Below are positions 37,223-42,867 of a stretch of 49,773 nt of DNA, one piece after another; position 1 is the first letter of the stretch; each line of letters starts with the position of its first letter. The position numbers and the translations under genes were made by a program. The DNA is from Nocardioides sp. (GTDB lineage Bacteria > Actinomycetota > Actinomycetes > Propionibacteriales > Nocardioidaceae): assembly GCF_030655615.1 (NCBI RefSeq), contig NZ_JAURVJ010000005.1:1-49773 (forward strand). Direction: 5' to 3'. The notes beneath the pieces were generated by a model. That model made no database searches and was not told the DNA's origin. It saw only the letters and a program-made list of their open reading frames with translations.

Positions 37223-37426
37223 ATGGCTCAGGGAACCGTCAAGTGGTTCAACGCTGACAAGGGCTTCGGCTTCATCGCGCAGGACGGTGGCGGCGAGGAC
37301 GTGTTCGTCCACTTCTCCGCGATCCAGACGAGCGGCTACAAGTCCCTCGACGAGAACCAGAAGGTCGAGTTCGACCTCGCCCAGGGCCCCAAGGGTCCCC
37401 AGGCCGAGAACGTCCGCATCGCCTGA
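37223..37426 (+). CDS. cspA: Cold-shock protein
   Basis: A 67-residue single cold-shock domain that binds single-stranded RNA or DNA. RNP1 is KGFGFIA (residues 13-19) and RNP2 is VFVHFSAI (27-34). Length and sequence are typical for actinobacterial CspA ([18 protein letters not shown]). AAAGGA precedes ATG 37223. It has its own promoter, long leader and terminator, so it is a single-gene unit. Confidence 0.97.
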
Positions 37427-37482: not shown

Positions 37483-38052
37483 TCAGGTGAGCTCGGTCGG
37501 CGTCCACGCCGGCCAGTGCGCCTCGCCGACGAGCCGTCCCTCCTCGAAGCGAGCGACCTCCGCGAACGGGTCGGCCGCACGGCTGTTGTCGTAGCAGGTC
37601 GTCCGGTCGGCGACCTCGCGGGCCGCCACGACGAGCGGCCACAGCCGCGCGTGGCGTTCGCGGATCTTGGCCTCGGGGACGTCGTGGCCGCCGCGGCGGA
37701 CGCGCTCGGACACGCGGGCCACGCTCAGGGCGACCGGCACGAGCGTGACGTGGAGGTGGACGAGGTAGCCGGCGGCGTCGGCGGCCCGCACCAGGTCGAC
37801 CTTGCTCGGGTGGCTGAAGACCGTCTCGGTGACGTACGACGACCGCTCGGCCAGGAGCCGACCGCGCTCGGCGGCGGCGAGGCGGGAGGCCTCGTAGGCG
37901 TGCTCGAGCTCGGCGCCCGGCCACTCGCGTGCGGCGATGACGTCGGCGTTGACGAAGGGCAGGCCGGTGCTGGGCACCAGGACCCGCTCGGCGAAGGTCG
38001 ACTTGCCGCTGCCGTTGGGCCCGGCCAGCAGGTGGAGGACCGGGGTGGTCAC
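37483..38052 (-). CDS. Zeta-toxin-like AAA/P-loop kinase
   Basis: A 189-residue P-loop protein with Walker A AGPNGSGKST (residues 10-19), the zeta-type motif FVNADVIAAREW, and VTETVFSHPSK as the substrate-binding loop. A basic helix region (RVSERVRRGGHDVPEAKIRERHARLW) follows, matching the zeta family, which phosphorylates UDP-sugars of cell-wall synthesis or other small molecules. GTG 38052 overlaps the upstream antitoxin-like stop (GTGA). This family also includes chromosomal members without toxic activity, so a toxin role is inferred from the pairing. Confidence 0.85.
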   Translation of the reverse strand: MTTPVLHLLAGPNGSGKSTFAERVLVPSTGLPFVNADVIAAREWPGAELEHAYEASRLAAAERGRLLAERSSYVTETVFSHPSKVDLVRAADAAGYLVHLHVTLVPVALSVARVSERVRRGGHDVPEAKIRERHARLWPLVVAAREVADRTTCYDNSRAADPFAEVARFEEGRLVGEAHWPAWTPTELT

Positions 38053-38399
38053 CCGGGGTGGCGAACGACCAGGTTGCCGGCGGCGTCGACCTCGGACCAG
38101 GACTCACCGGCCGCGGCGAGCTCGCTCTCGAGGTCGAGCGCGGCGCGCGCGGCGTCGATGCGCTCGTCCCACTCGGCACGGACGACTGCCTGCTCCGGGT
38201 CGCCGAGCGAGTCGTAGGGCTGGCGGCCGGCGAGGACGCGGGCGATGTCCTTGTGACTGACCTGGCGCGACGACTCGAGCTCGCGACCCAGGCGGGCCCA
38301 GTGGCTGAGCTGCTGGGCGGCGCTGCGGCTCATGAGCGCGCCGCTGGCCTTGGCCGCCTCGAACAGGTCACCGTCGATGCGGGTCGGCATCGTCGACAT
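38049..38399 (-). CDS. ParD-like antitoxin
   Basis: A 116-residue protein. The N-terminal half (TRIDGDLFEAAKASGALMSRSAAQQLSHWARLGREL) is the ribbon-helix-helix-like DNA-binding pattern of the ParD_like antitoxin family. The C-terminal half is acidic and helical, the usual toxin-contact region. AGGAGG precedes ATG 38399. It is first in a two-gene unit with the zeta-like kinase, the normal antitoxin-toxin order, and a palindrome in the promoter suggests autorepression. Confidence 0.85.
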   Translation of the reverse strand: MSTMPTRIDGDLFEAAKASGALMSRSAAQQLSHWARLGRELESSRQVSHKDIARVLAGRQPYDSLGDPEQAVVRAEWDERIDAARAALDLESELAAAGESWSEVDAAGNLVVRHPG

Positions 38400-38461: not shown

Positions 38462-39202
38462 TCAGCGGACGGTCACCGCGACGGAGAACACTCGAGCGGG
38501 CTCGGAGGCGGGGTCCCAGGGCTGCGCGAGCTCGAGCCCGACGACGGCTCGGCCGGCCGCCCGGGCGACGAGCTCCACGACCCGGTGGCCGAGCGCCCCC
38601 GCCGCGCTCGTCGGCGCCACCTCGACGGCCGACGACAGCAGCTCCAGGCACGGGGCGGGGTCGGTGGTGATGCGCCAGCGGTAGCCGGTGGCCCCCTCGT
38701 CGAGCCGGATCCGCAGCGTCGCCCCCAGGGCCAGGGTGACCGCGCTCCCGTCCGCGGTCTCGTCGAGCACCGTCTCGTCGGGCACCGTCTCGTCGGGCAC
38801 TGTCTCGTCGGGCGCCGTTGCCGGTCCCCCGGTGACGACGGCGCCCGCGAGGCCCGACGGCGGGAGCACGGCGCCGGTCAGGTCCGCCCCCGAGAGGTCG
38901 GTGCCGGTCAGCGCGGCCCCGTCGAGCAGCGCGCCGGTGAGGTCGGCTCCGCGCAGGTCGGCGGCGGTCAGGTCGGCGTCGCGCAGGTCGACGCCGACGA
39001 GGCTGGCCGACGTCGCGACGACCGACCACAGGTGGGCCGCCCGCAGCACCGAGCCATCGAGGCGCGCGTCCACCAGCGTCGCGTAGCTGAGGTCGGCCCC
39101 GCTCAGGTCGAGCCCCGACAGGTCGGCCCCCGCGAGCTCGGCGCCGTTGAGCTGCGTCGGCCCGCCCGCGGCCAGGGCCGCTAGGACGTCGTCGCGGTCC
39201 AT
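38462..39202 (-). CDS. Pentapeptide-repeat protein fused to a chagasin-type cysteine peptidase inhibitor
   Basis: A 246-residue protein without signal peptide. Residues 17-114 are pentapeptide repeats of the A(D/N)LxG type forming a right-handed beta-helix. A short repeated linker (PDETV, 131-149) leads to residues 153-246, which match the chagasin/I42 family. The three inhibitory loop motifs are recognisable: ATGYRW (171-176, NPTTGYxW loop), AAGALGH (200-206, Gly-rich loop) and QPWD (227-230, RPW loop). Chagasins block papain-like peptidases. The papain-like gene lies two genes upstream on the same strand, so it may be its natural target. It is last in the locus, 31 nt after its neighbour. 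Confidence 0.8.
   Translation of the reverse strand: MDRDDVLAALAAGGPTQLNGAELAGADLSGLDLSGADLSYATLVDARLDGSVLRAAHLWSVVATSASLVGVDLRDADLTAADLRGADLTGALLDGAALTGTDLSGADLTGAVLPPSGLAGAVVTGGPATAPDETVPDETVPDETVLDETADGSAVTLALGATLRIRLDEGATGYRWRITTDPAPCLELLSSAVEVAPTSAAGALGHRVVELVARAAGRAVVGLELAQPWDPASEPARVFSVAVTVR
38757..38816. repeat. 15-bp tandem repeat inside the inhibitor gene
   Basis: Four copies of about gtctcgtcgggcacc encode the PDETV linker repeats between pentapeptide and chagasin domains. The number may vary between strains. Confidence 0.85.
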
Positions 39203-39233
39203 GGGTCGACGCTCCAGCGAGTGGCGGCCGCCC

Positions 39234-40859
39234 TCACGCGATCGGGGCCTTGACGAGGTACCGCTTGCGGTAGCCCCCGAAGTCGACCTCCACGGTTCGC
39301 ACCGCCACCAGCGACGCGCGGTCGCCCTGGACGTCGTAGCCGACCTCGGTCGTCCCGGGGACGGTCGCGAACCCGACCGGGAGATCGCCCTTGAGGGCCA
39401 TGCCCCGGAGCCGGTCCGAGAAAGCCCGGGCCAGGAGGCGGTCGACGTCGGGCGCGCCGCCGTCGGTGGCCGTCTGCCCCGGGGGGACCGGCTCGCTCGC
39501 CGGCCCCCGGAGGGAGCGCTCGCTGAGGTCGTCGACCACCCGGGCCGAGGAGGTCACCGACGTGACGACGCCGTCGTTGTCGACCAGCACCTGGATGACG
39601 CCGGCGTCCGACGAGACCACCGGGATGCCGGCGATGGTCTGGCGGTACTGCACCAGGGTCTCGGTGGTGTACGGCCCGTCGATGCGCTCGGGGTCCCGGG
39701 CCGAGGTGCCGGCGCCGTTCACCGACGCGACCCGGTCGAGGACCATCGGGCCGACACCGTCGAGGCCGTACTGCGCCAGCGCGTCGGCCGCGACGCTCTG
39801 GGCCGTCTGGGCGTCGAGGACGGCGTGGTTCTCGAGGTTGGCCTGGGCCAGCTGCGCGACGACCGCACCGTCCGGTCCGACAGTGAGCAGCCGCCGGCCG
39901 TCGGACACCGTCGCTCCGGCCGCCCCGCTGCTCAGCGACGACGCGTCGAAGCCGAACTGCGCCGCCAGTCGGCCGGCCGACTGCGCGCTGGGGGGCGCGA
40001 ACGCCGCGGTCAGCGGCTGGTCCGGCACCGCGCGGTTGAGCTCGCGGGCAGAGGCGGCGGCGGCGTACCAGCGCCACCACCAGTAGTTGCTGCTGACGGC
40101 GCCCCACTCGAACGACCGCTCGTTGTAGCACCGGGCCTGAGCCTCGGCGGCGGACGCGCCACAGGCGGCGGCGGTCGGTGTCTGGTGGGGCGAGATCGCC
40201 CAGCTGGCGTTGAGCCAGGCCGAGCTGAGGCTGTCCCCGGCGTTCCAGCGGTTGCCGAAGTTGCGGCCGTAGTTGGCGTTGTCATAGCTGACGGTCTCGA
40301 ACCCGAAGAGCATCCTCAGGCCCTTGTTGGGCCCGGACCACGTGCGGTAGGGCGAGTGACCGTCGAAGACCCGGAGCGAGAAGCAGGTCGACCAGAACGC
40401 GTAGCGGCAGTACTCGTTGCCGATGGCCATGTTGCTGGAGACCACCGTGCAGTCGTTGCCGGCCCAGGCCGAGCCCATCGGGACGTAGAACACGCCGTTG
40501 TTGTCCATCCCGCCGTGACCGCTGTGATAGCTGATCAGCGCGGAGTCGACGCCGTAGGTGTCCTGCCAGTTGTCGAAGTCCTCGTAGTAGGCCCAAGCCT
40601 TGACGCCCGCGTCGGTGAGCCAGAAGTTGGGCGCCACGCCGAACCCGCCCAGCCACTGCAGGAACCCCTGCGCGTCGTCGTGGGTGAGCGAGAGGGCGCC
40701 CTGGTTGCAGAACGTCTCGATGCTGAAGGCGCCGACGGTGTGGCTGACGGCGGCGGCTGCAGCACCGGCGGACGGGGCGACCGGTCCCGTGGCCGGGACC
40801 TCGGTCGCGGGCTGGTGGGTCGTGTCCGGCGGGACGGTGGTCGGGACGGTGGGAGGCAT
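39234..40859 (-). CDS. Caspase-like-fold (clan CD / DUF6345-like) protein with FTP/PepSY-like domain
   Basis: A 541-residue protein. The Pro/Thr/Ala-rich N-terminus (1-38) shows no signal peptide. Residues 45-280 resemble DUF6345-type domains. SALISYHSGHGG (His112 or His115) and AFWSTCFSL (Cys159) are arranged like the His-Cys dyad of caspase/gingipain clan CD peptidases. The Trp-rich end (YWWWRWY) closes the domain. Residues about 310-440 carry ETLVQYRQTIAGIPVVSSDAGVI, the pattern of FTP/PepSY propeptide domains that act as inhibitors or chaperones of peptidases. AAGGAGGGG precedes ATG 40859. It lies between the papain-like gene (82 nt upstream) and the chagasin fusion (31 nt downstream). 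Peptidase activity is inferred. Confidence 0.7.
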   Translation of the reverse strand: MPPTVPTTVPPDTTHQPATEVPATGPVAPSAGAAAAAVSHTVGAFSIETFCNQGALSLTHDDAQGFLQWLGGFGVAPNFWLTDAGVKAWAYYEDFDNWQDTYGVDSALISYHSGHGGMDNNGVFYVPMGSAWAGNDCTVVSSNMAIGNEYCRYAFWSTCFSLRVFDGHSPYRTWSGPNKGLRMLFGFETVSYDNANYGRNFGNRWNAGDSLSSAWLNASWAISPHQTPTAAACGASAAEAQARCYNERSFEWGAVSSNYWWWRWYAAAASARELNRAVPDQPLTAAFAPPSAQSAGRLAAQFGFDASSLSSGAAGATVSDGRRLLTVGPDGAVVAQLAQANLENHAVLDAQTAQSVAADALAQYGLDGVGPMVLDRVASVNGAGTSARDPERIDGPYTTETLVQYRQTIAGIPVVSSDAGVIQVLVDNDGVVTSVTSSARVVDDLSERSLRGPASEPVPPGQTATDGGAPDVDRLLARAFSDRLRGMALKGDLPVGFATVPGTTEVGYDVQGDRASLVAVRTVEVDFGGYRKRYLVKAPIA

Positions 40860-40941
40860 GTGTGGCCCCTCCTTCGGGGAGCTGGTGACGGAGACGGAGC
40901 TGGTGACGGGTGCCGGGGCCGGCGGCCCAGGACGGGGCACT

Positions 40942-42030
40942 TCAGTAGACGTAGACCTCGACGATGCGGTCGTTGACGAGCCGGACGTCGACGGCGGTCT
41001 TGGACGCGCGCGCGGACTGCAGGGTGGTGAGGAGGGCGAGGTGCTCGGCGTCCGTCCCCCCGCCGACGTTCTTCCAGCCGGAGCCGACGACGAAGGCCGA
41101 CGAGTTGCGCGGCTCCGCCACGGCCCAGGTCCCGGAGACCTGCTTGCGCTTGAGCCAGACGTCGTCGATCTGCGTCTCGGGCAGGTCGACGCCCCACATC
41201 TCGAAGTCGATGCCGCACTCGCCGTAGCCGATGCGGAAGAACCCACCGTCGCCCCAGGTGGTGCCCCAGCTGTTCTTGGCGATCCAGGCGCGCTGGTTGT
41301 CGTCGTACCCGATGATGCAGACGCAGTGCCCGCCCGCCGCGGCGCCGGTCTGGTGGCGGTAGACCCCGGTCTTGTAGGCGAAGAAGTCGTCGTAGACCTT
41401 GAAGCACCCGACGGCCGGACCCGCGGTGGCCAGCCAGTCCTTCATCTCCTCGATGCTGCCCAGGTGCTTCCAGGCCGTGATCTTGCTGGTCCGCTCGTCG
41501 GCGTCGGCGCAGGTCCGGCACTCCTGGTCGCCGGCGGTGTAGGGGAAGCACGCCTCGTCGACGACGCCCTTGTCCCTCACGGCGTCGAGCGCCCGGTCGG
41601 GCCACCAGCCGGTGCTGCAGGTGCGCCCGTCCGCCTTGGCGTGGCAGTAGAACAGCTGCGCCTCGGAGAGGTCGATGGCCAGGTTGGGGTCGCGGGCGCC
41701 GAACCGGGCGGTCCCCTCCATCGTCGCGATGGTCCCGAAGGACACGCAGGACCCGCACGCGCCCTGGTTCCTGATCGGCTGCACGTAGGGCGTCAGGTCC
41801 ACCTTCGACGGGGCTCCGGCGCTCACGCCGGCCCCGAACGCGTGCGCCGCGGCGGCCTCCTCGCGGTCCTCGAAGCTGGCCACGCCGTCCGGCGGGTCCG
41901 CGCCCAGCCGGATCCGGCGCTCCTGGGTGCTGAGGACGGACATCGAGGTCTCCCCCGCTGTCCAGCTGGCTCCCTCGGCGGCCAGGGTCGCCTGGATCGC
42001 CGTGACGTCGACGCTGCTGTCTGCTGCCAT
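40942..42030 (-). CDS. Papain-family (C1A) cysteine peptidase
   Basis: A 362-residue C1A peptidase. The short N-terminal region (VTAIQATLAAEGASWTAGET...ERRIRLG, residues 8-43) looks like a bacterial pro-segment. The catalytic set is complete: oxyanion Gln89 and Cys95 (NQGACGSCVSF), His235 (GGHCVCIIGYDD) and Asn253 (KNSWGTTWGDGGFFRI). The usual Trp after the active Cys is Val. At least six further Cys could form disulfides, yet no signal peptide is visible, so it is either cytoplasmic or exported by an unusual route. The C-terminal ~75 residues (about 290-362) are an unassigned beta-rich extension. ATG 42030 follows GAGGTG. Confidence 0.9.
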   Translation of the reverse strand: MAADSSVDVTAIQATLAAEGASWTAGETSMSVLSTQERRIRLGADPPDGVASFEDREEAAAAHAFGAGVSAGAPSKVDLTPYVQPIRNQGACGSCVSFGTIATMEGTARFGARDPNLAIDLSEAQLFYCHAKADGRTCSTGWWPDRALDAVRDKGVVDEACFPYTAGDQECRTCADADERTSKITAWKHLGSIEEMKDWLATAGPAVGCFKVYDDFFAYKTGVYRHQTGAAAGGHCVCIIGYDDNQRAWIAKNSWGTTWGDGGFFRIGYGECGIDFEMWGVDLPETQIDDVWLKRKQVSGTWAVAEPRNSSAFVVGSGWKNVGGGTDAEHLALLTTLQSARASKTAVDVRLVNDRIVEVYVY

Positions 42031-42108
42031 GTGCCCACACCTCTGTCGTCCGCGGGACGCTCCGGACGGGACTTCCGAGCGTCGGGCGACAGCGTGGTGG
42101 AGAGGCCG

Positions 42109-42867
42109 TTACGCCGGCGTGAGCGCCGCGTGACTGCGGCGTCCGCCGGTGGCGAGGAACGGGCGCACCAGGTCGGTCATCAGGGTGGTCGGCGGGATGC
42201 GCAGCTCGTCGTGGAGCAGACGCTCGAAGTAGTGGTAGTGCCGCAGGGCCTCGACGACGTTGCCCTCCTGGAGGTGTACGCCCACGACGACGCGGTTGGA
42301 GCTCTCGCGCAGCGGCTCGATGTGCACCGCGGCGAGCGCGGCGTCCAACGCCTCCGCCGGCCGTCCCTGGTCGCGGCAGCCCTCGGCCACCGCCTCGAGG
42401 GCGTGGAGACGGAGCTGGCGCAGCCGCTCGCGCTGCGGGTGGACCCAGTCGTCGTACCACCCGGGGAGCAGGTCGCCCTGGGTGAGGAGGCTCATCGGGT
42501 CCGGGGTCGACGCGCAGGTGCGCCCCGCGACGAGGGCCGACGCGCAGGCTGCGACCTGGTCGACGTCGACGGTGACCTCCCTCGCGAGGGCGATCGACGA
42601 CTCGGTGATGGACAGCAGGCCGCCCAGCTCGTCGCGTCGCCGGAGCCGGAAGAGCAGCGTGCGCAGGCTGCTGTGGGCGTGGTGCTCGGACTCCTCGGGC
42701 CAGAGCGTGCCCGCGACGTACTCCCGGCTCGGGCGTCGGCTGAGCGCGACCAGCGCGACGAGCCGCTGGGTCTGCTGGGAGACCGGCATCGGCGCGCGGT
42801 CGGCACCGGTGAGGTCCCACCCTCCCAGGAGGGTCAGGTGCAGGCTCTCGGTCACGACGCCCCCCAT
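42109..42867 (-). CDS. SARP/AfsR-type transcriptional regulator (BTAD domain)
   Basis: A 252-residue regulator. An N-terminal winged-helix domain (about 5-100, LTLLGGWDLTG, REYVAGTLWPEESEHHAHSSLRTLLFRLRR) is followed by a bacterial transcriptional activator domain (BTAD, about 105-245, GDLLPGWYDDWVHPQRERLRQLRLHALEAVAE). No ATPase or sensor domain is fused, as in small SARP regulators that bind direct repeats to activate local genes. It is first of a four-gene minus-strand series, 78 nt before the papain-like gene, so it probably controls the peptidase locus. The start may be ATG 42867 or GTG 42855, the latter with a G-rich site at good spacing. Confidence 0.9.
   Translation of the reverse strand: MGGVVTESLHLTLLGGWDLTGADRAPMPVSQQTQRLVALVALSRRPSREYVAGTLWPEESEHHAHSSLRTLLFRLRRRDELGGLLSITESSIALAREVTVDVDQVAACASALVAGRTCASTPDPMSLLTQGDLLPGWYDDWVHPQRERLRQLRLHALEAVAEGCRDQGRPAEALDAALAAVHIEPLRESSNRVVVGVHLQEGNVVEALRHYHYFERLLHDELRIPPTTLMTDLVRPFLATGGRRSHAALTPA

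Follow-up and report, generated by a model that had tools for sequence, protein, structure and literature searches.

Why does a bacterium keep, within one cluster of genes, a papain-type peptidase, a protein that resembles the caspases and a domain related to inhibitors of papain-like enzymes? Such a cluster lies at positions 38462..42867 of the window, the whole 49,773-nucleotide (nt) stretch of Nocardioides sp. DNA analysed here (contig NZ_JAURVJ010000005.1), which comes from a draft genome that is 94.9% complete. Four genes, all on the minus strand and separated by intergenic gaps of 78, 82 and 31 nt, encode in the direction of transcription a SARP/BTAD-type regulator, a C1A peptidase, a DUF6345 protein and a pentapeptide-chagasin fusion (Table 1). 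This is the arrangement described in an original prediction made from the sequence alone, to which can now be added that the third protein belongs to a named family, DUF6345 (PF19872). Gene order, domain content, model folds, recurrence, peptidase exchange, agreement between inhibitor and peptidase families and the absence, in a rough test, of signal-peptide-like starts form the computed basis for reading the locus as a horizontally patchy protease cassette, in which a constant DUF6345 part and an exchangeable peptidase, here a C1A zymogen with its predicted inhibitor, would constitute a locked intracellular proteolytic switch. We give this reading an even chance of being correct.

Proteins encoded at the locus

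The peptidase matches PF00112 at 150.4 bits (cut-off 20.7), and the catalytic set attributed to it is complete (Gln89, Cys95, His235 and Asn253), with motifs that are nearly invariant in the 120 homologues listed (Q..CGSC in 120, GGH[CA] in 118 and NSW in 119). Residues 1-286 of its model, a cathepsin fold, superpose on procathepsin zymogens, propeptides included, and the protein is accordingly modelled as a papain-type, procathepsin-B-like predicted zymogen. Both PF00112 and PF09394, the chagasin family, have only one match in the host genome, at this locus. The C-terminus of the peptidase is a module of ~75 residues, and the same profile also matches an M6 peptidase of Microcystis at its C-terminus, as well as separate frames in three other loci (L008, L078 and L091), the protein in L008 having no Pfam match at E <= 0.01. 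As the Microcystis M6 enzyme carries the C-terminal module of the C1A peptidase, the exchanged peptidases are tied to each other, and the module, found in C1A and M6 peptidases and also apart from them, may connect peptidase to core. The fold search with the C1A model barely reached this module, and no pdb search was made with the module alone.

The DUF6345 protein matches PF19872 at 65 bits (cut-off 26.9; E 9e-18), and its predicted model has a predicted local distance difference test (pLDDT) score of 85 and a predicted template modelling (pTM) score of 0.88. By fold comparison, the N-terminal domain of the model has the caspase fold of clan CD with conserved His-Gly and Cys motifs; the predicted His-Cys dyad is in place (His115 and Cys159), and its motifs are nearly invariant in the 120 homologues listed (YH[SC]GHG in 118, STC in all). 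The C-terminal half had been described as FTP/PepSY-like. The Pfam FTP model (PF07504) reaches 17.9 bits, short of its cut-off of 21, and this half is therefore called PepSY-like only, a fold that was recovered when residues 270-541 of the model were compared with YycH (11.6), YpeB (11.1) and YycI (11.0). A PTxxP-type motif is present near the N-terminus, before a variable linker, in 53 of 120 DUF6345 relatives (P0001-P0120; median position 6) versus a shuffled mean of 2.5. The term DUF6345 is absent from the open-licence PMC literature searched, and we know of no experiment on the proteolytic activity of the family.

Both parts of the fusion match Pfam families, as predicted, the chagasin (I42) domain with 45.7 bits (cut-off 27.2). 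A profile built from five chagasin domains, with that of the window in first place, matches solved chagasins with E values down to 4.4e-18, namely 2wgn (inhibitor of cysteine peptidase, E 4.4e-18), the Trypanosoma brucei inhibitor (2cio, ICP) and T. cruzi chagasin (2nnr), and its TGY, G..G and W loop regions align to them. We take these residues to be the loop-forming ones and the source of 2wgn to be a Pseudomonas. At this C1A locus an inhibitor of the same peptidase family thus lies in the gene cluster, and the fusion is, from its sequence, predicted to inhibit the neighbouring C1A. Chagasins hold papain-like enzymes via three loops, with Ki values from picomolar to 100 nM (PMC7863939).

In the window, the gene after DUF6345 encodes a pentapeptide protein, as it does at 7 of the 36 loci compared below (L005, L006, L007, L009-L011 and L038) and on two of the three Paracoccus plasmids examined; in an alignment of eight sequences (A3), identity to the window's is 37-64%. 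The window, L038 and P0241 have this protein fused to chagasin, P0241 seemingly coming from the assembly (longest contig 6512 bp; matched indirectly) in which the DUF6345 and C1A proteins closest to those of the window are also found; in L014, L030 and L008 chagasin is a separate gene. A protein search with the chagasin region gave only one fusion beyond the window's, a lower bound since the search needs shared 5-residue words. The open-licence PMC literature has no occurrence of 'pentapeptide repeat' together with 'chagasin', and nothing on this gene arrangement was found there, judging by titles and the opening lines of abstracts. The last ~90 residues of the pentapeptide protein of one Paracoccus plasmid (L052 7622-8338) have no Pfam match and look faintly chagasin-like by eye.

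The regulator has the BTAD domain claimed for it (58.5 bits, cut-off 22.1). Residues 6-236 align to an AfsR model with E 3.9e-8, which falls short of the model's cut-off, and there is no Pfam match at the N-terminus, where a winged-helix DNA-binding domain would be expected. Two SARP-type genes stand in tandem at the Blastococcus DUF6345 locus, the Microcystis loci have a LuxR-type regulator (E 2e-16), and regulator signs at the Kineococcus DUF6345 locus are weak. SARP is not general to DUF6345 loci.

Peptidase exchange and inhibitor matching

One scan of contigs, with one genome per species, provided 36 DUF6345 loci, all profiled and some checked against Pfam; the peptidase profiles derive from enzymes found beforehand, and other families could be missed. 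A peptidase adjoins DUF6345 in 11 of the 36, and belongs to the C1A, M6, metzincin, S8 or M4 type (Table 1). Its gene stands directly before DUF6345 in Actinomycetota, Cyanobacteria, Zixibacteria and Methanosarcina, one gene farther away in Chlorobiaceae, and after DUF6345 in the Actinomycetota bin L012. Both the pairing of C1A with DUF6345 and the presence of chagasin next to C1A are seen again in unrelated phyla. DUF6345 loci with other peptidase families have no chagasin, and in two of them (L012 and L039) the M4 gene is followed instead by emfourin (PF20242, E 6e-17 and 3.6e-20). Counted by lineage, with Microcystis counted once, chagasin is present in three of four C1A lineages (the window, L014 and L030; not L015), emfourin in both M4 lineages and neither inhibitor in the four others. 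Shuffled tables agree this well in 0.0016 of trials, or in 0.004 with the window left out; the test excluded L008 and L038, in which chagasin stands without a visible peptidase, together with every locus that has no peptidase. In an earlier, smaller table that predates the M4 loci, Fisher's test of chagasin versus C1A gave only 0.14, and 0.048 with the 6512-bp relative added.

The Blastococcus S8 gene (L006 8170-9506) lies in two frames, with the N-terminal and catalytic parts apart, reflecting an assembly error or a real frameshift, and the Nocardia seriolae DUF6345 gene (L039 9951-11169) is in pieces, with the adjoining M4 and emfourin genes open. The Methanosarcina DUF6345 gene (L015 1344-2936; L056) has two in-frame TAG codons, which we presume may be read as pyrrolysine in that genus.

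Linkage, distribution and site of action

The two lists of 120 DUF6345 and 120 C1A homologues share 22 source assemblies (the window included; matched indirectly) versus 1.1 in perturbed lists. The distance matrices of the 22 pairs correlate with r 0.77, and with r 0.74 for the 15 pairs outside the closest clade; none of 5000 shuffles reaches either value. By these sequence comparisons, the linkage of DUF6345 and C1A is far over chance.

Co-occurrence of the genes across relatives in the Nocardioidaceae did not hold. PF19872 is found in 3 of 294 sampled family genomes and the 541-amino-acid (aa) type only in the window's own, the other two (L047 and L048) having a form with a signal-peptide-like start. 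In five samples centred on carriers, the 541-aa type was found at E <= 0.001 in 2/386 (one weak), 2/394, 2/118 (one weak), 1/112 and 2/111 (one weak) genomes, each sample's centre genome having been chosen as a carrier and counted in; the second match among the 394 lies on a contig as long as that of L028, and none is clearly a new carrier. The proposal of a module of peptidase and inhibitor is supported by comparison with distant lineages, and departs from what was expected in that close relatives did not show the neighbourhood and the SARP gene is not a general part of it. The host genome has a second DUF6345 protein, of 625 aa and with a signal-peptide-like start (G000:C169:17389-18024; L046 7160-9037, plus strand).

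Distant DUF6345 genes are present in seven Paracoccus plasmid records. Of three examined, two (L052 and L090) have DUF6345 with a pentapeptide protein and no match of the peptidase profiles, and L053 has DUF6345 alone; in L052 an IclR-type gene is upstream of DUF6345. Carriage by viruses was rejected, as tblastn at E 1e-5 found nothing in phages and IMG/VR contigs gave no match either. A role as cargo of a contractile injection system was set aside, the sheath family PF04984 having no match in the draft host genome; 6 of 13 carrier genomes searched do have matches.

The lack of visible signal peptides noted in the original prediction extends to the homologues. The N-terminal hydrophobic peak has a maximum of 1.68 (DUF6345) and 1.8 (C1A) among 240 homologues, none reaching 2.0; this cut is rough, two DUF6345 controls with signal-peptide-like starts having values of 1.93 and 2.13, and the family lies below both. 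By this rough test, the module proteins appear to have no signal-peptide-like starts.

Proposed mechanism and alternatives

The precedents of emfourin, staphostatin and Spi lead us to infer a switch with the caspase-fold protein as constant activator and the peptidase as plug-in effector. The propeptide of the zymogen, the PepSY-like half on the caspase and the chagasin look like layered locks. A SARP-type protein would switch the set on; the C1A would be made as a procathepsin-B-like zymogen, and any that became active prematurely would be intercepted by chagasin, for which the pentapeptide part may provide docking on a partner. The PepSY-like half would hold the caspase-fold protein until a signal releases it to cut the propeptide or inhibitor of its partner peptidase, and the freed peptidase might then degrade cell proteins, with arrest or death of the cell as the result.

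Several observations weigh against the cassette as a locked intracellular switch, besides the order of activation and the outcome being drawn by analogy. No peptidase was detected by the profiles used in 25 of the 36 loci, 16 of them Streptomyces, and it follows that the DUF6345 core needs no partner. Foldseek alone gave no caspase match for DUF6345 at E <= 0.001. Mycetocola L038 has the fusion and only the PepSY-like half of DUF6345, with no C1A within 10 kb, and Methanosarcina L015 has C1A and DUF6345 with no chagasin on its 4.8-kb contig. The papain-type cysteines, conserved across the C1A family, would also fit an oxidising place or action outside the cell. Of 20 Acidobacteriota C1A loci, 5 have chagasin nearby and no DUF6345, and in Kineococcus (L091 2112-5116; G297:C223) a 5.9-kb contig with no DUF6345 match has a SARP-type gene (203 bits to the profile), a C1A that includes both propeptide and C-terminal module, one more copy of the module and, on the other strand, chagasin; this contig is separate from the Kineococcus DUF6345 locus proper, which has a metzincin.

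Such units are not confined to Kineococcus. PF09394 has 13 matches in 15 carrier genomes, and seven chagasin stretches outside DUF6345 loci were examined, two G306 pieces being left out. C1A is beside chagasin in five (Kineococcus, Microcystis twice, Solitalea and Methanosarcina) and was not found near it in two (Arthrobacter and Methanosarcina); the Microcystis stretches (L093 and L094) lie away from the DUF6345 locus, which has an M6 in Microcystis. C1A and chagasin, in one case together with SARP, form an independent unit, and the locus in the window resembles a junction of this unit with a DUF6345-pentapeptide core. The Kineococcus unit backs the idea of a cartridge and equally shows C1A without need of DUF6345.

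A wider form of the cassette reading is possible and rather doubtful: a modular intracellular machine for death or defence, with a caspase-fold sensor-protease core (DUF6345-PepSY and its pentapeptide partner) and cartridges of unrelated catalytic classes (C1A/chagasin, M4/emfourin, M6, metzincin and S8), dispersed by horizontal transfer across bacteria and archaea, in which the caspase would unlock the cartridge as part of a two-step cascade. That inhibitor families track peptidase families, as in effector-immunity pairs, and that the papain-type cysteines are conserved would also suit interbacterial antagonism, in which the peptidase would reach neighbouring cells by release or delivery and the inhibitor would serve as the producer's immunity protein, as is discussed for protealysin-emfourin (PMC9505478). 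We consider this unlikely, as the N-termini are not signal-peptide-like in the rough test, the draft host genome has no match to the contractile sheath family, and it is DUF6345, not the peptidase, that is constant, which immunity logic does not explain. Defence against phages or other invaders by regulated self-proteolysis, an abortive response, would account for the patchy spread, for effector-like peptidases exchanged around a constant caspase-fold protein and for the downstream ParD-like/zeta pair (see below); the four proteins have no family match in PADLOC-DB at E <= 0.1, phage records and IMG/VR contigs hold none, no sensor domain is recognised, and we regard this explanation as quite unlikely. 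Ordinary regulated turnover or nutrition, with independent genes adjoining by chance, would fit the loci without a visible peptidase and the C1A-chagasin neighbours without DUF6345, and is very improbable, already strained by linkage far over chance, by covariation and by the position of the peptidase gene close to DUF6345 in the groups named above.

Comparison with known systems

Protealysin-emfourin of Serratia proteamaculans is an intracellular peptidase encoded with its own inhibitor in one operon, much as the window's cluster pairs a peptidase with a predicted inhibitor; cultures without emfourin lose optical density earlier, an effect that the authors link to possible toxicity, and the part of the source available mentions neither a caspase-fold core nor a regulator or pentapeptide part, the window having C1A-chagasin instead (PMC9505478). 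M4-emfourin pairs stand at DUF6345 in L012 and L039. The staphopain-staphostatin, SpeB-Spi and Bacteroides C10-inhibitor operons differ from the window in having C47 and C10 enzymes with unrelated inhibitors, and to our knowledge no DUF6345 partner. Like the window, they co-encode a papain-fold peptidase with an inhibitor, whose proposed role is to block premature cytoplasmic activity (PMC3462683).

The modelled N-terminal fold and the His/Cys motif pair liken DUF6345 to clan CD peptidases (metacaspases, SAVED-CHAT, gingipain and legumain), from which it differs in having a PepSY-like half, a sequence that matches none of the solved chains at E <= 0.1, and a cleavage activity that is only predicted. 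Caspase-containing conflict systems, as far as their main text describes them, likewise combine a constant module with variable domains that include pentapeptide repeats and caspase-type and other peptidases (eLife 2020, PMC7159879); that text is without the words chagasin, BTAD and PepSY, and no EAD, STAND NTPase or TRADD-N is recognised in the window. If the cassette reading is true, prokaryotes hold a caspase-fold protein as the fixed partner of exchangeable proteases, several of which come with a safety catch. DUF6345 would gain a likely role, natural peptidase-inhibitor pairs would be added as protein tools, and the role of bacterial caspase relatives would become directly testable, the swap of peptidase class being a natural experiment on who activates whom.

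Features of the locus and neighbouring genes

Table 1. Coordinates of the features discussed, and the DUF6345 loci by adjoining peptidase
Feature	Position or locus	Strand	Basis or remark
SARP/BTAD-type regulator, 252 aa	42109..42867	-	PF03704 BTAD E 1.2e-15
C1A papain-type peptidase, 362 aa	40942..42030	-	Peptidase_C1 (PF00112) E 1e-43
Propeptide-like N-terminal region of C1A, about residues 1-70	41821..42030	-	superposition on procathepsin zymogens
Unnamed C-terminal module of C1A, about 75 aa	40945..41163	-	profile matches in other loci
Same module, other loci	L008 1758-1979; L009 7329-7547; L078 8661-8882; L091 2470-2691		
DUF6345 caspase-fold protein, PepSY-like C-terminal half, 541 aa	39234..40859	-	PF19872, model, fold comparison
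Caspase-fold domain of DUF6345, residues 28-251 (predicted)	40107..40778	-	His115 at 40515-40517, Cys159 at 40383-40385
PepSY-like domain (YycH/YycI/YpeB type) of DUF6345, residues 270-541	39237..40052	-	
Pentapeptide-chagasin fusion, 246 aa	38462..39202	-	PF00805 E 1.5e-30, PF09394 E 8.3e-12
Pentapeptide-repeat part of fusion	38810..39202	-	related to small protein after DUF6345 in other lineages
Chagasin (I42) domain of fusion	38474..38734	-	sole PF09394 match of genome
C1A loci	L014 (Zixibacteria), L015 (Methanosarcina), L030 (Chlorobiaceae)		
M6 loci	L009-L011 (Microcystis)		
Metzincin loci	L005 (Arthrobacter), L007 (Kineococcus)		L005, astacin over cut-off; L007, astacin below cut-off, HExxHxxGxxH seen
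S8 locus	L006 (Blastococcus)		
M4 loci	L012 (Actinomycetota bin), L039 (Nocardia seriolae)		
Loci without peptidase match	L008, L013, L016-L018, L019-L029, L031-L037, L038, L040		L008, contig begins within DUF6345; L038, without caspase half; L040, short match only

A consensus scan of the locus found no promoter-like and no terminator-like sites, an uninformative result as shuffles give 0.1 and 0.6. Genes for a ParD-like antitoxin (PF11903) and a zeta-toxin/AAA protein (37483-38399, minus strand), which overlap each other by 4 nt, lie 62 nt downstream of the fusion gene and may share a transcript with it. Beyond them, at 37223-37426 on the plus strand, a 67-aa cold-shock-like protein, judged by eye, is encoded within a longer open frame.

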